Part shown: one piece after another, positions 1 to 61,455 of the stretch | Layout of the letters: every line of letters begins with the position of its first letter | How positions within the stretch are numbered: the first letter of the stretch is position 1 | Source: Flavobacteriales bacterium | GTDB lineage: Bacteria > Bacteroidota > Bacteroidia > Flavobacteriales > UBA1820 | Direction of reading: 5' to 3' | DNA length: 61,501 nt | NCBI GenBank assembly: GCA_017620815.1 | Contig: JAGAUI010000021.1 | Location: 1-61,501 of the forward strand | The notes under the pieces: model-generated | What the model was told of the DNA's origin: nothing | Databases searched by the model: none | What the model saw: only the letters and a program-made list of their open reading frames with translations | Program-made: the position numbers and the translations under genes

Positions 1-22
1 CAGACGTGTGCTCTTCCGATCT
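1..22. other. Illumina sequencing adapter remnant
   Basis: The first 22 bases equal the 3' end of the Illumina TruSeq/multiplexing read-2 adapter (it ends GCTCTTCCGATCT). They are not genomic. The DUF192 reading frame runs in from the right and is coding up to about base 25, so the genomic sequence begins at base 23. Recognised from memory of the adapter sequence. Confidence 0.97.
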
Positions 23-567
23 ACACAACCAGCTTTTATGCCTGCTCGTTCACATGTCCCACCGGGTAGTTCCAGAACATATTGAGCAGGAGCAAGTGAT
101 GGACGAGAGGTCTCGTCATAAGGCACTGCACTATGTATAATGCTCACTATACGTCCGTTTGAATTGATATAAATTATGTCTAGTGGCATACGGGTGTTCT
201 TCATCCAGAATGACTGCATCTCTTCTGCTGGGAAGATAAAGAGCATTCCTTGATTATATTCTAGTGAATCACGATACATAAGACCTTGGGCTCTACGGCC
301 TTCGTTATCGGCTATTTCTATATTTCCACTATAAAGGATACCCCCACCTGCTTGTGCTTCACGCACAGTCACCACACCCTGTGGACTGAATGGGATATTG
401 ATATGAGATACTTCGTTCTGGTTTTTATCACTACTCATAGAACTCATAGAGACAAATGAATCAACCACATAGCCTCCTAGAAAGATGATAATAAAACCAA
501 ATGCAACTACTTTCAACCAAGTACCTCTCGTAGAGGTGCTTTTACGTCTGTTTTTCTTATTACTCAT
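23..567 (-). CDS. DUF192 family membrane-anchored protein (3' end missing)
   Basis: My translation from an ATG at 567 gives 181 residues before the frame runs into adapter sequence. A basic N-terminus (SNKKNRRK) precedes one hydrophobic segment at about residues 17-36, so the protein is probably anchored in the inner membrane with the domain outside. The rest matches DUF192 (COG1430): a QGLMYR segment, then GMLFIF, FWMKNT, MPLDI and a final YVLELPGG stretch. The role of the family is not settled. The start overlaps the lgt stop as ATGA, so the two genes are probably translationally coupled. Only the last few residues seem to be missing, because the family usually ends soon after the LKPGD-like segment reached here (IKAGC). 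The truncation is due to the contig end, not to mutation. Confidence 0.88.
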
Positions 568-1394
568 TTTTTATTGATTTTTGAGGGATAAACACGTTTT
601 GATGCTGTAAAAATAAGGATTATTCCAGCGATGATAAATGGTATTGAGAGGATTTGCCCCATATTGAGTATCATACCTTCCTCAAATGCACTTTGATTTT
701 CTTTGAAGAACTCTATAATGATTCTCATACCAAAGAGCCACACCATAAATATACCAAATATAAGTCCTTCGGCCTTTACCCAACCACGCTTATATATATA
801 TGAGAGCAAGACAAATAGAGCCATGTATGCCACAGACTCATATAGTTGGGTGGGATGGCGAGGGATATTTTCTCCCAATGCACGGAATATGACACCATAT
901 GAACTACCACTAGGCAAGCCAACAATCTCGGAATTAAAGAAATTTCCTAGACGTATAAATGCCCCACCTAGAGCAACTACTATCACCAGACGGTCCATGA
1001 GCCATAGAAAATGGCGTTTGATACGACGAGATAGTATCCACACTGCTAGTGGTATGCCTATCGCTGCTCCATGACTCGCTAGACCTTGGTATCCGGTAAA
1101 CTTAAACGGAGATATCTGGAAGGGCAATATCATCTCCAGTATATGATTGCTATAATAATCCCATTCGTAAAATATGCAATGACCTAGTCGTGAGCCTATA
1201 AGCGTTCCAAAGAAAACATAAAGCAACATCGTACCAACTTCTTCCTCGCTCATGGAATCTCTTCGTGCCATCTTATTAAACAGCCACAAGCCCACCGCAA
1301 ATGCAGCAAGCCACATAAGCGAATAATATCTAAGCGTGATAAATCCTAAATCTATCCCCAATGGCGGGTCCCATACTATTGCTAGTGTTATCAT
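564..1394 (-). CDS. lgt: Prolipoprotein diacylglyceryl transferase
   Basis: Lgt transfers diacylglycerol from phosphatidylglycerol to the lipobox cysteine of prolipoproteins in the inner membrane. This is the first step of lipoprotein maturation, needed for the DUF4136 and endonuclease-type lipoproteins in this window. The 276-residue product has several membrane segments, the conserved H108 in an SHGAAIG segment, and the family signature GAFIRLGNFFNSE at about residues 144-156. The open frame extends upstream to 1505, but I chose the ATG at 1394. The protein then starts MITLAIVWDP as in relatives, the upstream residues are basic and unlike the family, and a promoter-like -7 element lies at 1418-1425. 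The gene is followed by DUF192 with a 4-nt overlap. Confidence 0.95.
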   Translation of the reverse strand: MITLAIVWDPPLGIDLGFITLRYYSLMWLAAFAVGLWLFNKMARRDSMSEEEVGTMLLYVFFGTLIGSRLGHCIFYEWDYYSNHILEMILPFQISPFKFTGYQGLASHGAAIGIPLAVWILSRRIKRHFLWLMDRLVIVVALGGAFIRLGNFFNSEIVGLPSGSSYGVIFRALGENIPRHPTQLYESVAYMALFVLLSYIYKRGWVKAEGLIFGIFMVWLFGMRIIIEFFKENQSAFEEGMILNMGQILSIPFIIAGIILIFTASKRVYPSKINKK

Positions 1395-1529
1395 ATATCT
1401 TTTTTTTACTACCGTAACAAATGTACGGCATAAAATACACTCTACCGAAAAATATAGCCTATTTTTTTGAAAAGCTATGTATTTATTCCCTATCTTTACC
1501 CTCATAATAGATATCTCTTACATATAGAT
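1395..1529. promoter_or_regulatory. Divergent promoter region, lgt / Glu-rich protein
   Basis: For lgt on the minus strand, TACATTTG (1418-1425, read in reverse) matches the Bacteroidota -7 consensus TAnnTTTG. For the plus-strand gene, TTTG at 1466-1469 and TATCTTTA at 1491-1498 are 21 nt apart, one base off the -7 consensus. Matches are by eye only. Confidence 0.5.
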
Positions 1530-2981
1530 ATGAAAAATTTACTAGAAAAAGAACTACGCCTTTTGGCACAAGAAATACTAGACATAAAAACAGATGAAGA
1601 CTTATCTTTATGTCATGAAAAAACTCGTCTGCTGTATGAAAAACTCACAGTGATGATGTACACAGGTCATCATTTGGGAAGTCAAAACACTACCGATGTA
1701 AAAGAAGAAACGCCTGTTATTATCCCCACAGAAGAGATTAACCCTTCCAGTAACACAGAAACTTCAATTGTCGATGTAGAAGAAACAGATGAAAAGATAG
1801 AGGAAATACCTACCACAGAGGCAGCAAAAGTAGAGAAAGTAGAAGAGACTATTTCTGAACCTATCCAGAACGTATCTATAGAGGAAATAGTAGCCATAGA
1901 TGAAGATGGTAGCGTTATAGAGGACATTAAAGTAGAAATAAACGAAGAGATAACCCTAGAAGAAGAACCACGCAATAGCGAAAAGAAAAAATCTCGCCGC
2001 ATATCCAAAACCAGCGATATATTCCAGCAGTCTCTCTTTGACCAAGACCTTTTCTCAAACGAAATCATCGGCTTTGACCCAGATGACGACATATTTGAAA
2101 AAGCACCGTCTGTAAACACCGAAAAAGACAGCAGTGAAATCATAGAGCCTGTAGTTCCTATTGCAGATGCTCCACAAGAGGATAAAGAAACAGAAAACTC
2201 CATAGAGAAAGAAGAAGAGAAAGATACTTCAGAGACTCCTGTGGAAGAGGCCATCGCAAATGAAGAAAAAGAGGACAACACTGCCCGTCTTATAGATGAA
2301 ATCATTGATAGTCCTATAAATATAGAACCAGCTTCATCCATCGAGAAAAAATCCTTCTTCTCTTTCCGCATAATGGAAACCGATGATTACGATATAGAAA
2401 CACCTACCGAAAATCCTGCCCCATCTGCCATTACAGAAGAAACATCAGCAGAGGAGAGTGTAGAAGAAGAAATAGTAGGAAACACAGTAGAAGAAGCCCC
2501 CGAAGCACCAGAGGTCATTATTGAGGAGGAAAAAACAGAGGATGCTGCAATAGAAAACGCCCCTTTAACAGAAGGAGCAGCCGATGAATCTATAGAAGAA
2601 ATAATCACAGAAGAAAAGACAGAAGAAAAAGTCATAGAAGATATAGCGGAAGAAACCTCACCTTCCCAAGAGGCTCCTATCACCATCAACGAAGCTCTTG
2701 CACAGAACACTTCTTCATCTAGAAAGCTATCTGTAAATGAGATGTTGGCATCCAGAAACATCGCCATAACTCTTAACGACCGTCTAGCCTTTATAAACAA
2801 CCTATTTGACGGGGAAGTAGAAGATTTTGAAAACACCATACGTTATATCTTCTCCCAAAAAGAAGTAGATGTAGTCATAGAATACATCACCGAAATTATC
2901 AAACCTTACTACAATAACTGGATAGAGAAAGAAGAATACGAAAAACGATTTATGGATATAATCCTCAAGTATTTTTCTTAA
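1530..2981 (+). CDS. Glu-rich protein with conserved C-terminal domain, function unknown
   Basis: The 483-residue product has three parts. The N-terminus (about 1-45) is a short helical segment, MKNLLEKELRLLAQEILD. The middle (about 50-390) is a very acidic, low-complexity region full of Glu, Ile, Thr and Val, including many EE and EEK repeats, and is probably disordered. The C-terminus (about 395-483) is compact, with SVNEMLA, LNDRLAFINNLFDGE and a helical end. I associate that last block with hypothetical proteins found widely in Bacteroidota. There is no signal peptide or membrane segment, so it is probably cytosolic. The ATG at 1530 was chosen over the upstream frame because it follows the promoter-like site and starts the conserved helix. 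It is a single-gene unit facing yigZ. Function unknown. Confidence 0.8.
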   Translation: MKNLLEKELRLLAQEILDIKTDEDLSLCHEKTRLLYEKLTVMMYTGHHLGSQNTTDVKEETPVIIPTEEINPSSNTETSIVDVEETDEKIEEIPTTEAAKVEKVEETISEPIQNVSIEEIVAIDEDGSVIEDIKVEINEEITLEEEPRNSEKKKSRRISKTSDIFQQSLFDQDLFSNEIIGFDPDDDIFEKAPSVNTEKDSSEIIEPVVPIADAPQEDKETENSIEKEEEKDTSETPVEEAIANEEKEDNTARLIDEIIDSPINIEPASSIEKKSFFSFRIMETDDYDIETPTENPAPSAITEETSAEESVEEEIVGNTVEEAPEAPEVIIEEEKTEDAAIENAPLTEGAADESIEEIITEEKTEEKVIEDIAEETSPSQEAPITINEALAQNTSSSRKLSVNEMLASRNIAITLNDRLAFINNLFDGEVEDFENTIRYIFSQKEVDVVIEYITEIIKPYYNNWIEKEEYEKRFMDIILKYFS

Positions 2982-2996
2982 GAAAGAAGAACATGA

Positions 2997-3043
2997 CCAT
3001 CATAGCGATGCGGCACCCTACGGGTGCCGCATCGCTATGATGG
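2997..3043. terminator. Perfect 22-bp hairpin between convergent genes
   Basis: Arms at 2997-3018 and 3022-3043 are perfectly complementary, with a 3-nt loop (tac). The hairpin lies between the ends of two convergent genes and probably acts on both. It has no clear U-tract on the plus strand and only a mixed T-rich tail on the minus strand, so it may block exonucleases or mark a recombination-prone repeat rather than be a classical terminator. Confidence 0.7.
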
Positions 3044-3049
3044 CTGTAT

Positions 3050-3670
3050 CTATTCTTCTATGAGTCTTACCATATACATTTCATCAAATGCTTTTTCTAT
3101 ACGAGAAACCATAGAAAGCCTTACCGAAAAATGCAGACGACAACGTCCCGTAAAATCCTGCTGTCTTATCCTAAGTTCGTTATCTTTCATCACACGCATC
3201 ACAGCACTCATTTGCGGATAATCAAATTCTGCTATAAAATCCTTCTCCACCACACATTCTTTCTTACTCACCTCATCTAGAGCCATCATAGCAGTGTTTT
3301 TATAAGCATTTATAAGCCCCGAAGTGCCCAATAAGATTCCACCAAAATAACGCACCACTACTACCAACACATTGGTAATGCCGCTGGAGAGTATCTGGTT
3401 ATAGATAGGCACTCCTGCCGTACCCGAAGGCTCACCATCATCATTGGCACGATAAGAAACACTATCATACCCCATCTTCCAAGCATAACAATGATGACGG
3501 GCACTATAATGTTCCGCTTTAAGTGCTTGTACCAATGCTTTTACCTCATCTTCGTTTTCTATGTGATACACATAGCCATAGAATTTGCTACCCTTATCCT
3601 TAAACAGAACAGGTTCTTCCAACGGAATATCTACCGTCACATAAGAATCTTTTACCTCACTATCCATCAT
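3050..3670 (-). CDS. yigZ: YigZ/IMPACT family protein
   Basis: The 206-residue protein belongs to the IMPACT (UPF0029/YigZ) family, whose members bind RNA or ribosome-associated factors and are linked to translational control; the bacterial role is not firmly known. Visible family motifs are HHCYAW at about residues 79-84, NDDGEPSGTAGVPI at about 95-108 and VVVRYFGGILLGTSGLINAYK just after. The length is typical (about 200). The start at 3670 overlaps the stop of the upstream GNAT gene in an ATGA arrangement, and a second ATG follows immediately, so either Met could be used. The two genes form a small operon that ends at the hairpin at 2997-3043. Confidence 0.92.
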   Translation of the reverse strand: MMDSEVKDSYVTVDIPLEEPVLFKDKGSKFYGYVYHIENEDEVKALVQALKAEHYSARHHCYAWKMGYDSVSYRANDDGEPSGTAGVPIYNQILSSGITNVLVVVVRYFGGILLGTSGLINAYKNTAMMALDEVSKKECVVEKDFIAEFDYPQMSAVMRVMKDNELRIRQQDFTGRCRLHFSVRLSMVSRIEKAFDEMYMVRLIEE

Positions 3671-61166: not shown

Positions 61167-61393
61167 GCAAAACCATTTAAAATAAAAAAGCCACTCTACG
61201 AGTGGCTTTTATCGTGGGAGCAGAGGGACTTCACTCGCCCCAGGTGACTTGAAAAGCAAAACCATTTAAAACTAAAAAGCCACCTCTTGGCGGCTTGTGG
61301 GAGCAGAGGGACTTCATTCGCCCCAGGTGGCTTGAAAAGCAAAACTATTTAAAACTAAAAAGCCGCCTCTTGGCGGCTTGTGGGAGCAGAGGG
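61167..61393. repeat. Tandem repeats downstream of tRNA-Val
   Basis: Units are 61167-61255 (89 bp), 61256-61338 (83 bp) and 61339-61393 (partial). In tRNA orientation each unit has the final bases of the tRNA 3' end (CCCTCTGCTCCCAC; on the plus strand copies at 61214-61228, 61297-61311 and the real one at 61380-61394), then a GC-rich hairpin with a U-tract, then AGTTTTAAATGGTTTTGC. The hairpins are 61186-61210, 61277-61296 (one A-C mismatch) and 61360-61379 (perfect). So a tRNA 3'-end/terminator segment is duplicated twice. No integrase lies nearby. Confidence 0.85.
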
Positions 61394-61455
61394 ATTCGAA
61401 CCCCCGACCCTCTGCTTGTAAGGCAGATGCTCTGAACCAACTGAGCTATGCTCCC
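61381..61455 (-). tRNA. tRNA-Val (anticodon TAC)
   Basis: The 75-nt minus-strand cloverleaf has acceptor GGGAGCA with TGCTCCC, anticodon loop CTTACAA (TAC) and T-arm GGGGGTTCGAATCCCTC. Discriminator A; CCA is not encoded. It is followed on its 3' side by three copies of a terminator module. Confidence 0.95.

Follow-up and report, generated by a model that had tools for sequence, protein, structure and literature searches.

The window analysed here, a stretch of 61,501 bases, is one complete contig (C35) from end to end. At its left end, an open frame on the minus strand (positions 1-567, 189 residues) encodes a DUF192 protein (PF02643; 113.2 bits against the Pfam curated cut-off of 27), with the match spanning residues 82-180 and profile positions 2-91 of 96. 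It is adjoined by lgt, the gene for prolipoprotein diacylglyceryl transferase (PF01790, 201.2 bits; 564-1394, minus strand, start codon chosen by eye). Positions 1-22 of the plus strand, CAGACGTGTGCTCTTCCGATCT, are an exact copy (22/22 nt) of the last 22 nt of the Illumina TruSeq-type read-2 adapter. The minus strand reads AGATCGGAAGAGC..., and on the coding strand this is the form seen when read 1 passes beyond the end of a short insert and enters the read-2 adapter. As the window is the whole of C35, the match lies at a true contig end, and the GATCT of the adapter at base 1 points inward.

The copy at base 1 was the sole match to the 22-mer in the window with up to three mismatches allowed, and none of 100 shuffles gave a match. 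By our own arithmetic, an exact 22-mer is expected by chance about 7e-9 times in 61.5 kb of both strands. The 22-mer was found once in the genome (42 contigs, 1,733,009 bases, 1.73 Mb), and neither its last 13 nt nor its last 11 nt had a second genome copy. When the 13-mer alone was searched with two mismatches allowed, one occurrence was found against 1.06 expected, which is not significant; the significance rests on the whole 22-mer at base 1. In the read-2 adapters tabulated in PMC6791345, the common part is GTGACTGGAGTTCAGACGTGTGCTCTTCCGATCT, in which GTGACTGGAGTT is followed by the same 22 nt. PMC9387291 gives AGATCGGAAGAGCACACGTCTGAACTCCAGTCA for its TruSeq Nano library, and reverse-complementing the first 22 bases of this sequence yields window 1-22. 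The 22-mer and the word 'adapter' occur together in 707 of the papers searched.

The junction between this sequence and the gene was then examined. The genuine part of the DUF192 gene occupies 23-567 on the minus strand, that is, residues 1-182 less one base, and is cut by the contig end. Base 22 coincides with the third base of its last Val codon. Since codon 182 consists of GT and base 22 and specifies valine with any third base, residues 1-182 stand and residues 183-189 are adapter. Among 60 genomes (our own and 59 relatives), DUF192 protein matches were present in 21, our own included, and the 22-mer in our own only. Blastp alignments showed that all three same-genus relatives carry VSW...stop at the position of DRKSTRL, with tails of GCMVSWIRTDEE, GNVVSWVEADQ and GDSVSWTQD against GCVDRKSTRL in the window. 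Of the 20 DUF192 proteins from relatives, 19 stop within their locus, none of them ending in DRKSTRL, and the twentieth (L144) runs off its locus. The protein aligns over all 182 residues, the DNA of the relative G002 aligns up to the junction (78% identity over window 25-567), and homology is lost at base 22/23.

These results bear on a preliminary description of the contig, which had placed an adapter at its start, regarded any call in bases 1-22 as spurious and held that the adapter truncates the DUF192 gene. The exact 22-mer, its position at base 1 of a whole contig and the loss of homology at the junction confirmed the adapter itself. The calls are indeed spurious, the seven false codons at the end of the open frame (1-21, minus strand; DRKSTRL) being translated adapter where same-genus relatives read VSW and a stop. 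The statement on truncation holds in that the gene is affected and has gained false codons, and can be refined: the contig end cuts the gene, and the adapter keeps the frame open for seven codons. The prediction lacks the stop codon and some 6-9 residues before it, and has gained seven false residues. Because so little is missing, the DUF192 domain match is nearly whole.

We also examined the same 22-mer in GTDB species genomes, where it was found in at least 120 stretches. Among the 125 matches listed in these, 121 had 200 or fewer bases outside the match (90 had 50 or fewer, 3 had none) and four lay deeper; these distances were measured to the outer end of the stretch, which need not be the contig end, since some contigs may be longer than the stretch. 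Outer bases were present for 122 of the listed matches; in 114 of these they agreed with GTGACTGGAGTT as far as they reached, and in 99 of the 114 along its full 12 bases. Of the remaining eight, four differed by 1-2 bases, one resembled a one-base deletion, and three (one of two matches in L026, plus L087 and L097) differed more. On the inner side, the matches listed had no letters in common in the first six bases. As the outer bases continue the adapter and the inner six share nothing, the 22-mer behaves as an adapter and unlike any gene. By reading, the 80 stretches with titles came from many phyla, and two (L034 and L073) were titled cultured isolates. In L026 (783-835), L087 (1678), L097 (1755) and L066 (479), adapter 22-mers lie deeper inside the stretch, with an adapter pair back-to-back in L026 and an adapter just after an N in L087; these are possibly chimeric joins in those assemblies. 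In the titles and abstract openings of literature on adapters in public assemblies, we found nothing directly on point. The adapter peptide KSTRLNSSH was not found in the papers searched.

Taking these results together, we regard it as virtually certain that window 1-22 is untrimmed Illumina adapter at a contig end, and we found no sequence evidence against this explanation. That the frame stays open through the 22 bases would also be expected if they were genuine chromosomal sequence resembling an adapter by chance. However, such a match, already of the rarity calculated above, must in addition fall exactly on base 1, the same-genus relatives have a different DUF192 tail, and in unrelated organisms the 22-mer is likewise found close to contig ends, in most cases continued outward by the remaining adapter bases. 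On the odds, the relatives' tails and the contig ends of other genomes, we rejected a chance resemblance, which is so improbable as to be negligible. An artefact extending further inward, with the contig end chimeric and some bases beyond 22 also foreign, is slightly less remote and still very unlikely. A misligated fragment could carry foreign DNA together with the adapter, and the sequence after DUF192 does differ among relatives, but the DNA identity to G002 extends over window 25-567, the protein aligns over all 182 residues, and the order lgt-DUF192 is common to the window and the relative G001. The intact lgt adjoining DUF192 shows that normal genome lies inside base 23.

We then compared the 84 ends of the 42 contigs. 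Adapter was present at one end only, the 22 nt at the left of C35. The other 83 ends had no terminal match longer than 2 nt to the two TruSeq read-through forms or the Nextera form, and no 11-mer of the TruSeq read-through or Nextera forms in their last 60 bases. With just one of 84 ends affected, contamination is not widespread in the assembly. We detected 44 exact end-to-end overlaps of at least 12 bases, four of exactly 141 bases, one of 137 and the rest of 18-98. The four 141-base overlaps fit short-read de Bruijn assembly with a final k of 141, the assembler presumably being MEGAHIT. C35 took part in none of the 44. When its true end, from base 23 inward, was compared with the terminal 400 bases of the other contigs, no overlap reached 12 nt, and the last 150 bases of that end had no 14-mer in common with other contig ends.

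As for the right end of C35, a tandem 83-bp repeat (window 61214-61394, 2.2 copies, 95% matches) adjoins tRNA-Val(tac) (61380-61455, minus strand) and by eye resembles a decayed tRNA 3' end together with a hairpin. These repeats recur at the start of contig C19, where a further tRNA-Val gene can be made out by eye, and C15 has a weaker 49-base match. There was no exact end overlap between the right end of C35 and the left end of C19.

The adapter explanation can be extended to a sequence of events. A short library fragment would have ended at the present base 23, and read 1, passing beyond that fragment, would have continued into the ligated read-2 adapter. The adapter would have escaped trimming, and the assembler would have extended the contig 22 bases into it where true sequence gave out. 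If the read ended at the contig end and reads were 150-151 bases long, the insert would have measured about 128-129 bases. The true chromosome would continue from base 23 with the last 6-9 DUF192 codons, a terminator region and perhaps tsf, which lies at the left edge of C34 and would be convergent with DUF192.

The last of these elements came from gene order, in which gene names other than lgt and DUF192 were assigned by eye. The same-genus relative G001 has tsf, an acidic-protein gene (other strand), lgt and DUF192, then a yigZ-like gene and a GNAT/ribD-like frame (opposite strand). The window has its yigZ-like and GNAT-like genes on the other side of the acidic protein-lgt-DUF192 block; between window 1-3670 and G001:C51 (L150), the block seems inverted relative to them. 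This is most simply read as an inversion of the three genes between our genome and G001, which predicts tsf beyond the left end of C35. In a search made after this prediction, tsf was found once in the genome (C34:68-1063, minus strand), its TAA stop just outside the match, so that about 64 bases separate the end of this outward-pointing gene from the left edge of C34. The chance that a random gene is so placed at a contig edge is about 0.2% by our own arithmetic. The C34 edge (L129, G000:C34, 1-67), 3' of tsf, contains a 12-pair hairpin that is terminator-like on both strands (-17.2 kcal/mol as DNA, z -7.68). The placement of tsf and the two-strand hairpin make it probable that convergent tsf and DUF192 genes flank the gap, beside a two-way terminator, and we infer that C34 neighbours the left end of C35. 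Counting against tsf as the neighbour, G003 has a small multidrug-resistance-type frame after DUF192; the order therefore varies in the genus. In G002 and G003, tsf and DUF192 are on separate contigs, which tells nothing for or against the neighbour. Our genome gave no match to a pattern built on the tail in G002; the pattern was strict, and the result says little. It is conceivable, though we consider it rather unlikely, that the assembly breaks at this point because a strong bidirectional terminator hairpin between tsf and DUF192 impedes the amplification or sequencing of the library; short fragments that end next to the hairpin, with adapter read-through, would then dominate, and the assembler would walk into adapter. 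If true, the presence of a hairpin would allow adapter-capped contig ends to be predicted.

The importance of the finding is one of data quality only; this is a known kind of artefact, without biological novelty. Bases 1-22 call for trimming, and the 189-residue DUF192 prediction should be marked partial and its last seven residues dropped, as DRKSTRL otherwise enters protein databases. The number of similar stretches in species-representative genomes indicates that the problem is not rare. Compared with the TruSeq-type read-2 adapter, the window has the last 22 of 34 nt, exact and with the ligation end toward the contig, and lacks the outer 12 nt and the index, as do 3 of the 125 matches listed elsewhere. 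With the adapter remnants in public assemblies, which are mostly metagenome-assembled, it shares the 22-mer, its orientation and its place near a contig end. The difference is one of size: 65 of the 80 contigs listed were shorter than 13 kb by our own count, whereas the contig here is 61.5 kb long.
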